DNA of 17,024 bases from Planctomicrobium sp. (GTDB lineage: Bacteria > Planctomycetota > Planctomycetia > Planctomycetales > Planctomycetaceae). Below are positions 3,471-17,024 of the stretch, piece by piece. The first letter of the stretch is position 1. Every line of letters begins with the position of its first letter. The notes under the pieces were generated by a model, which saw only the letters and a program-made list of their open reading frames with translations, did no database searches and was not told the DNA's origin. The position numbers and the translations under genes are program-made. Where the stretch lies: positions 1-17,024 of the forward strand of contig JABJMI010000864.1 of assembly GCA_018659505.1 (NCBI GenBank), written 5' to 3'.

Positions 3471-4203
3471 CCACGTCGCTAACATCTTAATGAAGAAAAC
3501 ATTCTAACAGCATGACAGAATGTATTGAAAGCCATCCGACTTCGAAATAGTCGCATCTTCTTACTGATTCAGTTTTTAGAACATTGGGGAAAGAAGTCAG
3601 AAGTACCGTTTACGCGGATGGTCGAACTTCACGCACCTTACGGCGCTTGCTTGAGTCGAATCAAACAGATCCCGGCAATTCCAAAACCATCGACTATTTG
3701 CGGTCGAAACGGAGCAGGGCAAACCTTTGCAAGCACATCTGGATCTACACGAAAGTTGGTCAATGATCCCTCGAATCGCTGGCACTCGCATTTCTGTTTC
3801 TTTAAGGTCGGATCTATTTACATGATACCGAGAAATCTCTGGGTACTTCACTCAGTAATAGACTTATTCAGCGACATATGGCGGACCTACATCGCTACCA
3901 CGATTTGTCCCAAGCTTCTTCACTGCAAGTATTTCATCAGTGGCATCCTGCGCCTGCCCTACAGAGACTTATCCATTCACCAATGTCCGAGAGTTATTCA
4001 TTCTCTGTGGACGAATATTTATAATGTCTTAATTTTTTAGACGAATCCTCAGCTTGGGCTCATGAAACGATATAACATAAACATAATGAATGATAACACT
4101 TACGCGACATGCGCAACTCAAGATTGTTATATAAACGCGACATACACGTCATGTAAATTTTACAGATATTCAAAAGTATTCGTTACACTACTGAAGTATT
4201 CAC
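3471..4203. other. Non-coding or decayed stretch
   Basis: No convincing intact gene is present over about 730 bases. Open frames here (longest 3525-4040, plus strand) have unnatural composition, no ribosome binding site and no recognisable motif. The frame beginning ATG at 3512, stopped at 3548 and open again to a TGA at 3764-3766, gives a charged, protein-like sequence and could be a decayed gene fragment, but I cannot name it. From about 4040 the DNA becomes AT-rich, which is typical of acquired or regulatory DNA. Short direct repeats occur (ACGCGACAT at 4102 and 4135; AAGTATTC at 4174 and 4194), but pairs of this length are expected by chance. Confidence 0.5.
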
Positions 4204-4232
4204 TTGATTTCGGAGCATTTCGGGACGATACT
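4204..4232 (+). promoter_or_regulatory. Candidate sigma-70-like promoter upstream of the structured segment
   Basis: TTGATT (4204-4209) and GATACT (4227-4232) are separated by 17 bases. Each hexamer matches the consensus at four of six positions. Transcription would start near 4239, just before the GC-rich segment at 4241-4313. Before the IS insertion this would have been the nearest promoter to the Abi_2 gene. This is a pattern match only, and planctomycete promoters are poorly defined. Confidence 0.35.
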
Positions 4233-4238
4233 AAATCT

Positions 4239-4317
4239 AACGCACCTGCCCCGCCTATCCCAGAAATGGTGACGCGCATCTCGGGCGGGTATTTTTATGC
4301 GCTATCGGGCGGGACCA
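4239..4317 (+). ncRNA. Candidate structured RNA (possible AbiF-type antitoxin or leader RNA)
   Basis: A GC-rich patch sits in otherwise AT-rich DNA. GCGCAT (4274-4279) pairs with ATGCGC (4297-4302) around a 17-base loop. The loop holds GGGCGGG (4283-4289), and a second copy lies just after the hairpin (4307-4313). Either copy can pair with CCCCGCC at 4249-4255, giving a pseudoknot-like or an enclosing stem, so two mutually exclusive folds are possible. The two copies form an exact 9-base direct repeat, TCGGGCGGG, 24 bases apart. Structured RNAs upstream of abiF genes are an established class, which makes this position suggestive. An overlapping open frame (4062-4325) has no recognisable motif and I do not call it. 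The assignment is inference. Confidence 0.35.
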
Positions 4318-4326
4318 TCTATTGAG
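4318..4326. repeat. Left target-site duplication of the IS
   Basis: TCTATTGAG directly abuts the left inverted repeat and recurs exactly at 5785-5793 outside the right end. Nine bases fits the 8-9 bp duplications made by IS256-family transposases. Confidence 0.85.
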
Positions 4327-4352
4327 GAGTTATTGTTGAAAGTTGTGTTCTG
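4327..4352. repeat. IS left terminal inverted repeat
   Basis: Starts GAGTTATTGTTG and ends GTTGTGTTCTG. It matches the reverse complement of 5759-5784 at 22 of 26 positions; the last 11 bases are identical. Confidence 0.85.
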
Positions 4353-4368
4353 TTGAAATGAAGAAAGG

Positions 4369-4429
4369 TGGCGTATTCTGCTGAAACCTTGAACCTTCAG
4401 CGGCTCGAAATGAGCACAGGAATACGCCA
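4369..4429 (+). promoter_or_regulatory. Hairpin sequestering the transposase ribosome binding site
   Basis: TGGCGTATTC (4369-4378) is the exact reverse complement of GAATACGCCA (4420-4429), which covers the spacer and the A of the ATG start and ends beside AGG at 4418-4420. An inner stem, GCTGAA (4380-4385) with TTCAGC (4396-4401), stabilises the structure. In an RNA entering from outside the element the hairpin can form and block translation, a strategy known from IS10 and IS50 against read-through transcription. The pairing is seen; the role is inferred. Confidence 0.6.
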
Positions 4430-5748
4430 TGAACAAGACTACGACAACCACAACCCAAGCACCAGTCCAACGAGATTCTCGTGATCAGAGTCTCGACCCG
4501 GAGGTACTCGCGTTTCGAGCGAACTTCGAGTCTCGCAGCCCGCTCGATGAGATCATTCGTGAAGGAGCCAGGCGAATGTTGCAGACAGCCATCGATGCCG
4601 AAGTCGAAGACTTCATCGCAACACATTCTCAACACGTTGACGAACAGGGACGTCGACAGGTCGTTCGCAACGGACATCTTCCATCTCGTGAAATTCTCAC
4701 CGGAGCGGGACCTCTGGAAGTTCAGCAGCCACGCGTGCGAGACAAGTCATCGGACAAAGAGAACCGAGTTTTCTTCTCTCCAAATGTGTTACCGCCGTAC
4801 TTGAAGAAGTCGAAGACCATTGAAGAATTGATTCCGTGGCTGTACCTCAAAGGAGTTTCGACGGGAGATTTTGCTGAGGCGTTACAAGCTCTTGTCGGCG
4901 AACAAGCGAAAGGCCTCAGTGCCAATGTCATCGTCAAACTCAAAGAGAAATGGAGCCAGGAATACGAAGAGTGGTCGAAGAGAGATCTTACTGACAAGCA
5001 GTACGTCTACATCTGGGCCGATGGCATTCACGTGAAGGTTCGCCTGGAAGATGATGCGAATAAGAAGCAGTGTATGCTGGTTGTCATCGGTGCGACTCCT
5101 GATGGCAAGAAGGAGTTATTGGCGATTCAGGATGGCTACCGCGAGAGTGAACAAAGCTGGAACGAACTCCTTCTGGACTTGAAGAATCGAGGGCTGGAAG
5201 TCTCACCCAAGCTGGCGATCGCTGATGGTGCTTTGGGCTTCTGGGCGGCCTTGAGGAAGATTTCACCAGAGACGAAAGAGCAACGCTGCACCGTGCACAA
5301 GACTGCCAATGTGTTGAATAAACTTCCGAAATCCGTTCAACCCAGAGCCAAGTCTGACCTGCATGAAATCTGGAATTCTGCGACTAGGGAAGATGCCAAT
5401 AAAGCTTTCGATCACTTCTTAAAGAAATATGAAGCCAAGTACGAAGGAGCCGCAGGGTGTCTGAAGAAAGACCGCGATGAGTTGCTTACGTTCTACGATT
5501 TCCCAGCTGAGCAATGGGCCCATTTGAGAACCACCAATCCCATTGAATCAGCATTCGCGACAGTTCGCCTCCGACATAAACGAACCAAAGGGAGCGGCAC
5601 CAGGAGAACGAGCTTGGCAATGATCTACAAGCTCGCGCAATCCGCCGCGAAGAACTGGAGACGCTTGCGAGGTCACCAACAAATTATCCATATCATCGAA
5701 GGACGTTCCTTCCAAGACGGAATATTAAAGCAAGAATCCGCCGCCTAA
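4429..5748 (+). CDS. IS256-family (mutator-type) DDE transposase
   Basis: The 439-residue protein is the transposase of the surrounding IS and is full length for the family. The catalytic triad is visible: Asp198 in WADG, Asp266 in IADG and Glu373 in the typical NPIES block. The Cys-x2-His pair (Cys287, His290) characteristic of this family lies between the second Asp and the Glu. The N-terminus contains the usual helical DNA-binding region, including an RNGHLPSR-type block at 80-87. The ATG at 4429 has AGGA about seven to ten bases upstream, within a hairpin. No frameshift or internal stop is seen, so the enzyme is expected to be functional. The left inverted repeat lies 76 bases upstream and the right one begins 11 bases after the stop. 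Confidence 0.95.
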   Translation: MNKTTTTTTQAPVQRDSRDQSLDPEVLAFRANFESRSPLDEIIREGARRMLQTAIDAEVEDFIATHSQHVDEQGRRQVVRNGHLPSREILTGAGPLEVQQPRVRDKSSDKENRVFFSPNVLPPYLKKSKTIEELIPWLYLKGVSTGDFAEALQALVGEQAKGLSANVIVKLKEKWSQEYEEWSKRDLTDKQYVYIWADGIHVKVRLEDDANKKQCMLVVIGATPDGKKELLAIQDGYRESEQSWNELLLDLKNRGLEVSPKLAIADGALGFWAALRKISPETKEQRCTVHKTANVLNKLPKSVQPRAKSDLHEIWNSATREDANKAFDHFLKKYEAKYEGAAGCLKKDRDELLTFYDFPAEQWAHLRTTNPIESAFATVRLRHKRTKGSGTRRTSLAMIYKLAQSAAKNWRRLRGHQQIIHIIEGRSFQDGILKQESAA

Positions 5749-5758
5749 TTCAAATTCT

Positions 5759-5784
5759 CAGAACACAACATTTGACAATATCTC
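5759..5784. repeat. IS right terminal inverted repeat
   Basis: Reads CAGAACACAAC at the inner side and ATATCTC at the outer tip. It contains an outward-facing TTGACA (5772-5777), a perfect -35 hexamer. Confidence 0.85.
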
Positions 5785-5793
5785 TCTATTGAG
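5785..5793. repeat. Right target-site duplication of the IS
   Basis: TCTATTGAG is an exact copy of 4318-4326. It contains the TTG start codon (5789-5791) of the Abi_2 gene, so the insertion point is the translation start region. Confidence 0.85.
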
Positions 5794-6715
5794 TAATAGC
5801 AATCTACAGAATTACTCTAAACCTTGGCTTAATGTCGAGCAACAGGTTGCCGTTCTTGAATCAAGAGGGCTTACGGTCGCTGACAAGCAAGCTGCTATGT
5901 CATTTCTACTACACGTCAATTACTACCGATTTTCCGGGTATTGCCTCGCATTTGAAGATCAGCGTCATGTTTTGGTGGATGGCACGACCTTCGAAGAAAT
6001 AAAACAGACGTATGACTTTGACTCTAAAATTCGTGATTTATTCACCGAAGCTCTGGAGTTAATAGAGATCGATCTCAGAACGACAACGGCGTATTCCTTT
6101 GGTGAAACCTATGGTGCATTCGGGCACACTCTATCAAGGAACTTTCACGACAGGTTTGACTATAATGCCAACCACTGCGACTGGCTATCACGATTGAACG
6201 AAGAGACTGAAAGGTCAAGCGAACTATTCGTGAGGCATTTTTCACGCAACTATCATGACTATCCGAATATCCCAATTTGGGTCGCAACAGAGATTATGTC
6301 ATTCGGTGGAGTTTCAAGAATGATTGCCGGAATGAAAAAGAAGGACCGAAAGAAAATCTCCACTGAATACCAATTGGCACCTCGCGTACTTTCCAAACTT
6401 ACGCACCATTTCGCTTATGTTCGGAATCTCTGTGCACATCATTGCCGACTCTGGGATCGTAGATGGAAGGTAAAGCCTGAATTGCCTGATCGTGCTGCAT
6501 TCAGGAGCCCACATCTTATTTCTAATAGTGGTCTCTACTCTACAGTTCTGTTGCTTGAAATGATGTTGAGTAGATGTCCAGCGATCAGTACGGAAGCATC
6601 ACTCTGGAAAGATCGGATAATTTCAATTCTAGATCACCCACCAAACTGCCCTGACTCAATTCTGAAAATGGATGTACCAGTAAACTGGAAACAACATCCA
6701 GCGTGGTCTCAGTAA
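5789..6715 (+). CDS. Abi_2 family (AbiD/AbiF-like) abortive infection protein
   Basis: The 308-residue protein has the signature blocks of the Abi_2 family: an N-terminal KPWLNVEQQVAVLESRG region, YYRFSGY at 45-51, a long helical section, IPIWVATEIMSFGG at 161-174, and RNLCAHHCRLW at 212-222. The last block contains Arg212-x4-His217, the Rx4-6H motif of HEPN ribonucleases. Family members stop phage spread by arresting the infected cell, and AbiF types act as RNA-cleaving toxins held in check by a structured RNA. Length is normal, so the protein looks intact. The TTG start is the first possible start in this frame; its present upstream sequence (IS end) has no ribosome binding site, whereas the pre-insertion sequence had a purine-rich GGGCGGG eight bases before it. 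Expression is therefore probably altered by the IS. The next in-frame Met is residue 37. Confidence 0.85.
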   Translation: MSNSNLQNYSKPWLNVEQQVAVLESRGLTVADKQAAMSFLLHVNYYRFSGYCLAFEDQRHVLVDGTTFEEIKQTYDFDSKIRDLFTEALELIEIDLRTTTAYSFGETYGAFGHTLSRNFHDRFDYNANHCDWLSRLNEETERSSELFVRHFSRNYHDYPNIPIWVATEIMSFGGVSRMIAGMKKKDRKKISTEYQLAPRVLSKLTHHFAYVRNLCAHHCRLWDRRWKVKPELPDRAAFRSPHLISNSGLYSTVLLLEMMLSRCPAISTEASLWKDRIISILDHPPNCPDSILKMDVPVNWKQHPAWSQ

Positions 6716-6944: not shown

Positions 6945-7364
6945 ATGCCTTGGACCCAAAAACAATTTTCATTGCCGAGCTATCGTCGTGGTTTTCACAT
7001 CATCACTCGACATGTGAAAGAAGCGATCCCTGAGTTGGCAGAGATTGAAGTGGGGTTGCTGCATGTTTTCATCAAGCACACGTCTGCATCTCTGACAATC
7101 AACGAAAACGCTGACCCGGATGTGCTGATCGATATGGAATCGTCGGTCAATGCGATTGTTCCCGAAGAATTCCCTTACGTTCACACTTGTGAGGGACCAG
7201 ACGATATGCCCGCTCATGTGAAAGCCTCCATGATGGGTAGCTCAGTCAGCGTTCCCGTCAATCAAGGACAGCTACAACTCGGAACCTGGCAAGGCATCTA
7301 CCTGTGCGAACACCGCAACCACGGTGGCTCGCGAAAACTGGTTTTGACATTGCAAGGGGAATAG
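6945..7364 (+). CDS. yjbQ: YjbQ family protein (UPF0047)
   Basis: The 139-residue protein matches the small YjbQ/UPF0047 family over its whole length. Visible blocks are HTSASLTINENADPDV (45-60), EGPDDMPAHVKASMMGSS (83-100) and GTWQGIYLCEHRNHGG (113-128), with the conserved His, Glu and Asp positions of the trimeric fold. Members can supply weak thiamine phosphate synthase activity in Escherichia coli, but the physiological role is uncertain. It is cytoplasmic, with no signal peptide. The ATG has a GAGAACAG purine stretch just upstream. It stands alone: a palindromic repeat precedes it and a convergent gene follows. Confidence 0.9.
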   Translation: MPWTQKQFSLPSYRRGFHIITRHVKEAIPELAEIEVGLLHVFIKHTSASLTINENADPDVLIDMESSVNAIVPEEFPYVHTCEGPDDMPAHVKASMMGSSVSVPVNQGQLQLGTWQGIYLCEHRNHGGSRKLVLTLQGE

Positions 7365-14230: not shown

Positions 14231-15343
14231 ATGAAGCTGACATGTTCTCGAAGCCGACTCTCGGCAGCCTTTCAAATCGTCGGTAGTGTTGTCCCTACCA
14301 GAACACCTAAAGAGATCCTTCGAAATGTGAAGCTGACTCTCGCTGACGGCCGTGCCACTCTCTTAGGAACAGATCAAGAAGTCGGTATTCGTTACGAAAT
14401 CCCTGAAGTCGAAACTGACTCTGTTGGCGAGGTGTTACTACCAACCAAACGGGTGAATGACATCTTACGAGAAGTCAAAGATGAAGAGATTAGCCTGGAA
14501 GTAAATGAAGAGGCACTTTGGATTCGCACCAGTCAGTCTGAGTTTCGCCTCAGCGTGGAAGACCCGGCAGAATTCCCGAATGTGGCTGCCTTTGAAGATG
14601 AGAACTACTACGTCATCCCAGGGAAAGCACTTAAGCAGGGTATTCAACGCACGATCTTCTCGACCGACGTCGAGAGTACACGCTACGCACTCGGTGGCGT
14701 TTTGATGGAAATTGATGCTGAAAATCTCACTCTTGCCGCGACAGATAGCCGCCGGTTAGCAGTTTTCAAAACAGGTTGTTCTGCTCAGGGGAATGTCTCA
14801 GAAGAAGCTGGGCAGCCTGTCATCCCGGCTAAAGCGATGTCGTTGATTGAGAAATCGATCAATGATGATGACAGTGAAGTCAAGATCGCGATTCATCAGA
14901 ATGAAGTTCTCGTCCACAGCGGAGCATCAACAATTTACGCTCGCTTGGTCGAAGGTCGCTTCCCACGTTATCAGGATGTCATTCCAGCCGAATTCAAAGT
15001 GAAGATTGACTTAGTTGCAGGTCCATTTTTGTCGGCAGTTCGCCAAGCGATGATTGTTACGAACGAAGAGAGTCGCGGAGTCGATTTCACGTTCGAAGAT
15101 GGCTCACTGACCTTGACCAGTCTGGGACAAGATGTCGGTTCTTCGAAAGTGGAAATCCCGATCAGTTTCGATTCGGACCCAATTGTTGTCACGTTTGATC
15201 CACGTTTCGTACAGGATTTCCTGAGGGTACTGGATTCGGCAGGGCCGTTAACACTCAACATGATTGACGGCAACAACGCAGCGGTCTTCATGGCAGATGA
15301 CACTTATACTTACGTGGTGATGCCGCTTCCGCGTGATGATTAG
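14231..15343 (+). CDS. dnaN: DNA polymerase III beta sliding clamp
   Basis: The 370-residue protein has the length and pattern of the bacterial beta clamp (366 in E. coli): three tandem clamp domains at about 1-125, 126-245 and 246-370. Recognisable blocks are an N-terminal MKLTCSRSRLSAAFQIVGSVVPTR-type segment, LGGVLMEI and LAATDSRRLAV at about 155-176, VEGRFPRYQDVIP near 240, and the C-terminal YVVMPLPRDD tail of the protein-binding pocket. It dimerises as a ring that tethers polymerase to DNA and also anchors mismatch repair and initiation control proteins. It is the first gene of a plus-strand set with dciA and gyrB. The ribosome binding site is weak (GAAG). No dnaA precedes it; the upstream gene is the divergent rsmF. 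Confidence 0.97.
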   Translation: MKLTCSRSRLSAAFQIVGSVVPTRTPKEILRNVKLTLADGRATLLGTDQEVGIRYEIPEVETDSVGEVLLPTKRVNDILREVKDEEISLEVNEEALWIRTSQSEFRLSVEDPAEFPNVAAFEDENYYVIPGKALKQGIQRTIFSTDVESTRYALGGVLMEIDAENLTLAATDSRRLAVFKTGCSAQGNVSEEAGQPVIPAKAMSLIEKSINDDDSEVKIAIHQNEVLVHSGASTIYARLVEGRFPRYQDVIPAEFKVKIDLVAGPFLSAVRQAMIVTNEESRGVDFTFEDGSLTLTSLGQDVGSSKVEIPISFDSDPIVVTFDPRFVQDFLRVLDSAGPLTLNMIDGNNAAVFMADDTYTYVVMPLPRDD

Positions 15344-15415
15344 CATCGTATAGCTGCACAAATTTTGTGTGCATACCATTAGCGGCTCAGTAGAAATTCT
15401 TGAACGGAGAAAACG

Positions 15416-15763
15416 GTGAGTCGTCGTCCTGGTGAGCGAAGTCGACGTTACGATAAATCAGAGCCGGCTGCACTCGGTGATGTGATTTCACAGTTATTCG
15501 CCCTTCGCGGATATGGACGGACTCAGGGAAACAAACAACTTGAGAATAGCTGGGCCGAAGTGGTCGGCAGCGACATCTCAGAACAAACCAAAGTAATGGG
15601 ACTGAAGAATGGAGTGCTGCAAATTGGAGTTTCCAACTCAGCATTGATCAGCGAACTCTCTGCGTTTCTTAAACCGGAGTTCCTTGAAAAATTTCAGACA
15701 GATTATTCCCATCTCAAAATAAAAGATATCAAATTCAAACTGCGTGGCAGCCTGTCCAAGTGA
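15416..15763 (+). CDS. dciA: DciA-like helicase-loading protein (DUF721)
   Basis: The 115-residue protein starts at a GTG with GGAG about eight bases upstream. After a basic N-terminus (SRRPGERSRRYDK), it follows the DUF721 pattern: LGDVISQLFALRGYGR, a Trp-containing WAEVVGSDISEQTKVMGLKNGVLQIGV block (46-72), NSALISELSAFLKPEFLEKF and a final KIKDIKFKLRGS. DciA is the widespread, ancestral loader or operator of the DnaB helicase in bacteria that lack DnaC. Its place between dnaN and gyrB matches the conserved replication block seen in other phyla (often recF-dciA-gyrB), which strengthens the call. It is 72 bases after dnaN and 59 before gyrB, so an operon is likely. Confidence 0.85.
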   Translation: MSRRPGERSRRYDKSEPAALGDVISQLFALRGYGRTQGNKQLENSWAEVVGSDISEQTKVMGLKNGVLQIGVSNSALISELSAFLKPEFLEKFQTDYSHLKIKDIKFKLRGSLSK

Positions 15764-15822
15764 GTATTTCAGCTGGACGGTTATCCTCAGTGCAGGTGTG
15801 ATCGAAGGAAAGAATCAGACCC

Positions 15823-17024
15823 ATGAGTGAAGAAACAACGAACAAACCCGACGATTATAAAGCAGATTCCATTCAGCATCTGGAAGGGATCGAAGGGATT
15901 CGGCACCGACCAGCGATGTACATTGGCGGCACCGATTCCGCTGGTCTGCATCATCTGGTCTATGAAGTTTCTGATAATGTCCTGGATGAATACTCCAATG
16001 GCTATGCTAAGACAGCCAGTGTGACGATTCATGGTGATGGATCGATTACGATCTCAGACGATGGTCGCGGGATTCCTGTAGACATCATGAAGGACAAAGG
16101 GAAGTCGGCTCTCGAAGTCGTCTTCACCGAGATTCATGCTGGCGGAAAGTTTGATCGCAAAGCGTACGCTGTCGGAACAGGTGGTCTGCATGGTGTCGGG
16201 ATTACAGCTGTCAACGCTTGTGCTGAATGGTTGGAAGTTGAAGTTTGCCGAGACGGCTTTGTTTATCGCATGGAATTCGCTCGCGGACGATTAACATCCG
16301 ATCTCGTGAAAGGTGGTCCGACCGAGAAGACTGGCACGAAGGTCACATTCAAACCTGATTCGCAAATCTTCCCCAATACGACATTCAGTTACGACATCAT
16401 CCATAAACGACTGCAAGATTGCTCTTTCCTGAATGCAGGTGTGAAGATCAATGTCGAAGATGAACGGACAGGTCAGTCTGATACTTTCTGCTATGAAGAT
16501 GGACTCGCTGAGTTTGTGAAATGGATCAATCGTACAGAGACGCCGATCCATCCCGAAGTGATTCGTATTATTGGTGCCGTTGACACCGTTGAAGTCGATA
16601 TCGCTTTGCAATGGAACGATGGATATTCCGAAAGTATTCGTTGTTTCGCGAACGGGATTTCCAACTCTGAAGGGGGAACACACTTCTCCGGTTTCAAGAC
16701 AGCGATGACTCGTACGCTCAACAGCTACGGCAAGAAGAACAATCTGTTCAAGGACATGACACCCGCCGGCGATGACTTCCGAGAAGGTCTGGCTGCGGTG
16801 ATTACCGTCCGGATTCCGAATCCGCAGTTTGAGTCGCAAACAAAGATCAAGCTCACCAACGCCGAAGTGGAGGGGGTTGTGAACTCTGTGGTGGGTGAAG
16901 TTCTCACTAAGTATCTTGAAGAGAACCCCTCGATCGCCAAGGGAATCTGCCAGAAGTCTCTCCGAGCCGCTGAAGCGAGAGAAGCTGCCAAGAAAGCCCG
17001 AGACATGGCGCGCAGCCAGGGTAA
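15823..17024 (+). CDS. gyrB: DNA gyrase subunit B (partial, N-terminal 400 residues)
   Basis: The frame runs off the right edge after 400 codons. The GHKL ATPase domain is clear: IEGIRHRPAMYIGG (23-36), Glu48 in YEVSDN with Asn52 for magnesium, SDDGRGIP (78-85), and the ATP-lid GGLHGVGITAVN (120-131). The transducer domain shows the SEGGTHFSGF block (282-291) and the QTK loop (339-341) that contacts the ATP phosphates. Gyrase introduces negative supercoils together with GyrA. The Toprim and tail regions lie outside the window, so a ParE assignment cannot be fully excluded, but the dnaN-dciA neighbourhood favours gyrB. GAAGGAA about 12 bases upstream serves as ribosome binding site. The two ATPase residues needed for activity are conserved. 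Confidence 0.93.
   Translation, partial: MSEETTNKPDDYKADSIQHLEGIEGIRHRPAMYIGGTDSAGLHHLVYEVSDNVLDEYSNGYAKTASVTIHGDGSITISDDGRGIPVDIMKDKGKSALEVVFTEIHAGGKFDRKAYAVGTGGLHGVGITAVNACAEWLEVEVCRDGFVYRMEFARGRLTSDLVKGGPTEKTGTKVTFKPDSQIFPNTTFSYDIIHKRLQDCSFLNAGVKINVEDERTGQSDTFCYEDGLAEFVKWINRTETPIHPEVIRIIGAVDTVEVDIALQWNDGYSESIRCFANGISNSEGGTHFSGFKTAMTRTLNSYGKKNNLFKDMTPAGDDFREGLAAVITVRIPNPQFESQTKIKLTNAEVEGVVNSVVGEVLTKYLEENPSIAKGICQKSLRAAEAREAAKKARDMARSQG

Follow-up and report, generated by a model that had tools for sequence, protein, structure and literature searches.

IS256-family insertion between a predicted abiF-type RNA and an AbiD/F gene in Planctomicrobium sp.

In a contig of Planctomicrobium sp. (17,024 nucleotides, analyzed as a whole and called the window in the following), an insertion sequence (IS) is located directly at the start codon of an abortive infection gene of the Abi_2 type. 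This raises the question of what the insertion has separated the gene from and what this would mean for its expression. A preliminary description of the locus proposed that the coding region is left whole but cut off from its own 5′ signals, and that the gene might thereby be silenced. Here, the element, the gene and the segment upstream of both were compared with related loci, and the features are summarized in Table 1.

Table 1. Features of the split locus (positions in the window)
Feature	Position	Strand	Basis or detail
−35-like hexamer TTGATT	4204–4209	+	17-nt spacer to −10
−10-like hexamer GATACT	4227–4232	+	12 nt before RNA outer stem
abiF-type RNA (putative RNA antitoxin)	4239–4298	+	covariance model R1; U-tract 4290–4298
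Core fold of the abiF RNA	4245–4289	+	R1 alignment, covariation
Outer stem	4245–4250/4284–4289	+	R1
Inner stem	4252–4254/4274–4276	+	R1
Apical loop	4255–4273	+	19 nt
Bulge	4277–4283	+	7 nt
Partial repeat of the RNA's 3′ half (GCGC..TCGGGCGGG)	4299–4313	+	includes GGGCGGG 4307–4313
Left copy of target duplication TCTATTGAG	4318–4326	+	9 bp, read from sequence
IS256-family element	4327–5784	+	1,458 bp, complete
Inverted repeats	4327–4352/5759–5784		26 nt, 85% complementary
Transposase ORF	4429–5748	+	439 aa, no internal stops, same direction as abi gene
Outward-facing TTGACA	5772–5777	+	in right inverted repeat
Right copy of target duplication TCTATTGAG	5785–5793	+	9 bp; TTG start 5789–5791 inside
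AbiD/F (Abi_2) HEPN protein gene	5789–6715	+	308 aa, intact ORF; Pfam, PADLOC
HEPN RNase motif codons R212-N-L-C-A-H217	6422–6439	+	alignment of relatives

The element and the AbiD/F gene

The trace that transposition leaves is a perfect 9-bp duplication flanking a matching pair of inverted repeats, and in the IS256 family the target duplication comprises 8–9 bp. Exactly this arrangement is present here, with two perfect copies of TCTATTGAG bracketing the element, and 9-bp duplications also flank seven of the ten related IS copies in another genome (G046). The IS in the window is therefore a real transposition event. The duplication finder reported none at the other three G046 copies nor at L171–L173, of which L172 and L173 are short or contig-end pieces, resulting in seven of 13 overall. 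The transposase matches Pfam Transposase_mut (E = 4.3e-66) as well as NCBIfam transpos_IS256 (322.9 bits with a cut-off of 150). Together with the size of about 1.46 kb, the 26-nt repeats, the 9-bp duplication and the outward-facing −35 sequence in the right repeat, which is also found at the right ends of seven G046 copies, this corresponds to the IS256 family. Among the 99 searched genomes, the closest transposases have identities of 90% (G004) and 83% (G015). The insertion at the abi start codon, as stated in the preliminary description, is confirmed by these data. The left duplication contains an orphan TTG (4322–4324), which opens a frame of five codons ending with a TGA (4337–4339) within the IS.

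One could suspect that an IS copy was wrongly joined here during assembly, since the 4.65-Mb draft, in which one copy of the IS was found, is fragmented (951 contigs, 75% complete) and 17 contigs are on record for the exact transposase. Furthermore, the longest contig recorded for P0001, a one-residue variant (S4G) of the window Abi protein, has 102,944 bp and exceeds those recorded for the exact transposase (57,967 bp at most). Due to this, an IS-free sister allele may exist, an argument that depends on how the database counts contigs. However, a chimeric join is not expected to yield a perfect 9-bp duplication at ends matching those of related elements, and an artefact appears extremely improbable. 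P0001 is marked as the window's own protein in the list of relatives, though residue 4 differs.

The protein encoded behind the element matches the Pfam domain Abi_2 (PF07751) over its full length (180.3 bits, E = 6.1e-53, profile positions 2–184 of 184) and is called AbiD by PADLOC (E = 8.9e-70). The Abi family profile also matches the PDB entry 8vz6, "Abi family protein" (E = 1.1e-54, profile positions 7–305). Within the RxxxxH motif of HEPN RNases, R212, N213 and H217 are invariant among 21 aligned relatives. The protein is thus a putative toxin, for which an RNase activity neutralized by an RNA is predicted. No other match to this protein was found in the draft genome, and its four closest named relatives are from Planctomycetota (L005–L008).

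The TTG codon is supported as the predicted start, since most of the 21 aligned proteins begin within a few residues of it (P0008 is predicted to be nine residues longer), a relative with 58% identity (L002) has ATGAGT where the window has TTGAGT, and the ORF caller begins at 5789, which means that the frame contains no ATG, GTG or TTG from the preceding stop up to this position. In the old leader, inspected by eye back to 4259, no in-frame ATG, GTG or TTG was seen either.

The protein does not appear to be clearly decaying, because it departs from only three of the 73 positions at which at least 95% of the other proteins agree (L to I twice, W to F once), placing it at rank 9 of 100 relatives for such departures. 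For this comparison P0001 stood in for the window protein, one residue apart, and the set comprised 100 of the 120 proteins listed.

The RNA upstream of the insertion

To the left of the IS, on the same strand as the abi gene, a segment is present which in relatives is located directly upstream of the gene and which is now 1.5 kb away from it. A covariance model (R1), trained on 31 relatives with the window excluded, recognizes this segment with 50.9 bits (E = 2.6e-10), and this is the sole match up to E = 10 on both strands of the 17 kb. All nine pairs of the match are standard, and the stems, covariation, bulge and U-tract of the wider abiF family are present. In relatives the same layout is repeated: AACA.A is followed by a 6-nt arm, a single base, a 3-nt arm and a loop. 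The partners of the two arms come next, the 3-nt one first, with a short bulge between them, and then the U-tract and the gene.

The model of the abiF RNA in Rfam (RF03085) does not report the window RNA at its gathering threshold of 37 bits, and over positions 4040–4340 it finds nothing at E ≤ 10. It likewise misses the planctomycete loci tried (L002, L005–L008, L012, L017). In a first set of 20 loci, the layout of one, L019, is RF03085 itself (43.8 bits), and in a second set the threshold is reached at the places of the R1 matches in 14 of 20 loci. Below the threshold, at E ≤ 10, RF03085 was found among 11 loci only in L018 (32.5 bits) and L015 (26.2 bits).

Across 90 related loci (461 kb), comprising the best 80 of 552 confirmed contig relatives and ten from whole genomes, R1 yields 80 matches on 78 loci at E ≤ 1, and 74 loci are matched at E ≤ 0.01. 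Outside the training set, 47 of 59 loci are matched, one of which (L007) repeats the training sequence L006. Another 40 viral loci were scanned by a layout script, separately from the R1 search. The matches are located upstream of the abi gene with the exception of one weak match in L073 (3957–4011, E = 0.035), which lies downstream, while upstream of the gene this locus has a match that is even weaker (E = 0.38). The nearest following ORF with 120 aa or more in L073 (4370–5653) is not Abi-like and, judged by eye, looks similar to an AAA ATPase.

Twelve of the 90 loci have no R1 match at E ≤ 1 (L048, L053, L055, L057, L058, L066, L071, L075, L077, L082, L084, L090). In L055 the contig start leaves too little sequence ahead of the gene for the RNA, and in L048, L053, L058, L071 and L077 the layout is visible by eye. 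At the position of the abiF RNA, L057, L082 and L084 carry, as seen by eye, a different, GGCCGGC-type hairpin with a U-tract, and something similar is seen in L066 and L075; this may be a further variant class of the RNA.

The 31 seeds were picked by a scan demanding 6 + 3 standard pairs, so that the percentage of paired positions is given by construction and the evidence lies in the double changes only. Sequences whose bulge has 6 nt were excluded from the training, since MAFFT misaligned their 3′ arm. In the seeds, 49 cells with two-sided changes are found, compared to 8.8 in shuffled alignments and 1–10 when the partner was slid. For 48 distinct R1 matches (alignment A4, which was fitted to the model and whose sources were selected among its matches), two-sided changes occur at eight of the nine pairs, with 63 cells vs. 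10.7 shuffled and 2–5 slid. Folded alone, 4239–4298 adopts exactly the abiF fold with a pair probability of 1.0 for the outer stem. The surrounding segment 4225–4326 has no excess stability in RNAfold over its shuffles (z = −0.06), and the predicted structure is one that rests on comparison, not on energy.

Taken together, these comparisons suggest that the segment is a divergent abiF RNA, which is missed by the standard model of Rfam and which is very probably an antitoxin. Among open-licence papers, a search for Abi_2 together with planctomycetes found none, a scope that leaves its absence from the literature unproven, and the available parts of the open-licence literature on AbiF and planctomycetes do not mention this RNA.

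The preliminary description had also pointed to a GGGCGGG eight bases ahead of the TTG, and this is indeed present, relative to the TTG of the left duplication. It lies in a segment that partially repeats the RNA's 3′ half and affects the predicted folding of a longer transcript. In 4239–4317, the 5′ arm of the outer stem prefers this second GGCGGG (4308–4313), with −27.0 vs. −24.9 kcal/mol; the outer abiF pairs then have a probability of 0.04 and the alternative of about 0.82. Since the longer transcript refolds in this way, the antitoxin fold would be favored for the terminated RNA only. A conserved switch was considered and rejected, as a second GGCGGG that can pair completely with the 5′ arm occurs in three of 81 sequences (window, L060, L062) compared to about 1.6% in shuffles; it is kept as a lineage-specific possibility only.

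Further structural candidates were discarded. Pairing of CCCGCC with GGGCGGG as the main stem was given up in favor of the abiF register CCTGCC/GGCGGG seen in the relatives. An H-type pseudoknot, in which GCGCAT pairs with ATGCGC past the U-tract, was suggested by the window and L002 and is not general (81 sequences, mean longest pairing 3.40 vs. 3.88 in shuffles). Among the 52 loci whose loop has 13 nt or more, a hairpin in the apical loop scores above the mean of its own shuffles in 48; in the window it is within chance, with 42% of 500 shuffles being as good.

Upstream of the RNA, two promoter-like hexamers are found. The hexamers, their spacing and the distance to the RNA are identical in L006, L007 and L017; in L002, L003 and L005 the spacing is kept with one or two letters changed, and in L012 and L008 the region is more different. 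Scores of at least 8/12 for the sigma-70 consensus are reached in 59 of 80 relatives vs. 19% of shuffles. A stricter scan of 4040–5830 listed neither a promoter nor a terminator (1.7 and 1.8 expected by chance), and it requires at least 9/12 matches, one more than the promoter of the RNA has, and loops of at most eight, by which it misses the stem of the U-tract. The hexamers and the GC-rich structured segment noted earlier as 5′ signals of the gene are present and conserved, but are better understood as belonging to a small RNA of its own, the hexamers as its promoter and the segment as its body. Judged by these features, promoter-like hexamers, RNA and U-tract are whole to the left of the IS.

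Consequences of the insertion

When the IS and one duplication are removed, 32 bases lie between the outer stem of the RNA and the TTG, a distance which is now about 1.5 kb. In seven relatives (L002, L003, L005–L007, L012, L017) the RNA lies so near the gene that an IS would not fit between them, which supports the earlier statement that the element parts an intact coding region from its upstream signals. Relatives without the upstream segment, or genes starting far upstream, had been named beforehand as observations that would speak against it, and the outcome favors the finding.

We consider it probable that the locus is an AbiF RNA-antitoxin/HEPN-toxin cassette split by the IS, with the antitoxin on, the toxin mostly off and the coding sequence preserved. 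In the intact cassette, an RNA carrying a promoter of its own and a terminator-like U-tract would be closely followed by abiF/abiD, and under normal control this RNA would bind the HEPN RNase protein and limit read-through. The IS256 element would have entered between the RNA and the toxin gene, at the start codon of the latter, and presumably did so recently. The RNA would still be produced and able to act in trans. The output of the toxin gene would be low, because the source of read-through and the leader are lost. What expression is left would come mainly from read-through of the transposase gene, which is possible since this gene is co-oriented and ends 40 bases before the TTG. Full-length AbiF would thus be produced in small amounts or not at all, and the antitoxin RNA would still be made. 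Against a split cassette speak the silence of the Rfam abiF model on the window and the preference of the longer transcript for another fold. The silencing proposed in the preliminary description fits the separation from the leader; the description had overlooked that the split system is probably a two-part one of RNA and protein.

Co-orientation and the short distance, together with the fact that no terminator-like site is listed between the two genes, would also fit the opposite effect, namely that the transposase promoter or a hybrid promoter drives AbiF apart from its RNA, which in trans would provide tolerance. The outward TTGACA in the right repeat points in the same direction, and −35/−10 fusion promoters are known for IS256 according to an excerpt of PMC9330008. 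However, the possible −10 sequences TAATAG (5794–5799) and AATAGC (5795–5800) are poor and located within codons 2–4, so that a transcript from a hybrid promoter would start past the TTG and give no full-length protein. Between the end of the IS and the TTG no Shine-Dalgarno-like sequence is seen by eye. The strict scan, too, lists no promoter-like site there, which is weak evidence since it also misses the RNA's own promoter and U-tract stem. An activation of the gene by the IS is, on this basis, unlikely.

Very unlikely is a more elaborate version, in which the cis cassette has turned into a trans pair, with toxin made only by transposase read-through and, in addition, the GGGCGGG acting as a two-state leader that hides the bases before the start in the read-through RNA. 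If the trans-pair reading were true, a rise in transposition activity would raise AbiF as well.

The split cassette is compatible with two views on selection, and it is on selection alone that a neutral insertion into a dispensable defence locus differs from it. A sequence-driven choice of the target, considered in the preliminary description, is not supported by the seven 9-bp duplications of the approximately 70% identical ISs in G046, which all differ and none of which is like TCTATTGAG; this diversity is in favor of neutrality. Since such abi genes are sporadic (four of 197 relatives and ten of 392 genomes in a phylum draw, the window's own genome counted in both), their absence is tolerated. 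The position between RNA and toxin, sparing both, would be the least damaging place and argues against neutrality, but n = 1. Overall, we lean toward a neutral insertion. That the insertion was selected, silencing a costly toxin and sparing the antitoxin, would agree with a promoter and RNA left whole and the toxin alone severed; it is rather unlikely given a single event and a gene without clear decay. For the same two reasons, selection for silencing cannot be shown from this one event.

A search for the empty site gave the following picture. The neighboring gene (6945–7364) is present in same-genus genomes, and the abi gene is absent from the five examined. With blastn, no shared flank was detected in the four loci where the neighboring gene aligned (L151–L154), nor was anything found in L155, L159 and L160. 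The pattern of the left flank had no match in viral contigs, and a first single-protein scan of genome contigs found no relative. Two genes that on visual inspection resemble dnaN and gyrB follow each other at 14231–17022 of the window, and due to this the cassette may be located near the replication origin.

Comparison with known systems

A paper by Zilberzwige-Tal reportedly deals with AbiF and Cas13. The present locus shows that a single insertion can separate a putative antitoxin from its toxin with both sequences unharmed, and it offers a naturally occurring case in which trans action of the RNA and a need of the toxin for its own leader can be examined. Furthermore, the predicted divergent abiF RNA occurs together with AbiD/F genes both in Planctomycetota and in further phyla.

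With RF03085 the RNA shares the outer 6-bp stem, the inner 3-bp stem and the 3′ bulge, and matches of both models coincide in L019 and 14 of 20 further loci. In contrast, the window RNA stays below the reporting level, its apical loop has 19 nt instead of 11 in the Rfam consensus and its bulge has seven nt instead of six, the former number being also found in L019, which RF03085 does match. The protein belongs by profile, in a comparison of the protein sequence alone, to the family of PDB 8vz6, which is PbAbiF with its ncRNA (PbAbiF-AbiFr complex) according to a figure legend in PMC12737573. In excerpts of PMC12373285 and PMC12737573, AbiF is proposed as ancestor of the Cas13 nuclease and its RNA as forerunner of the guide RNA.

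The closest counterpart described is AbiF/RCd22 from the phi027 prophage of Clostridioides difficile (PMC12373285, in excerpts). There, RCd22 with its two abiF motifs is located directly upstream of abiF and possesses a promoter and a terminator of its own; it lowers read-through into abiF and neutralizes the toxic AbiFCd in cis and in trans by binding. Toxicity of AbiFCd and its neutralization have been reported, as has the binding of the antitoxin RNA to the toxin protein, a trait of type III toxin-antitoxin systems (PMC12373285, in excerpts). The window differs in having one copy of the motif instead of two, in the IS between RNA and gene and in an RNA that the Rfam model misses. A tandem pair, which recalls the two motifs of RCd22, is seen in Allochromatium palmeri (L025), where abiF RNA matches at 2212–2281 and 2400–2461 precede one abi gene. 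Both systems have in common an Abi_2 HEPN protein with an RNxxxH motif (RNQCAH in C. difficile, RNLCAH in the window) and an upstream abiF-motif RNA with promoter and terminator of its own, both of which are predicted in the window. The locus holds a defence system of a known kind, with an RNA that the public model misses.
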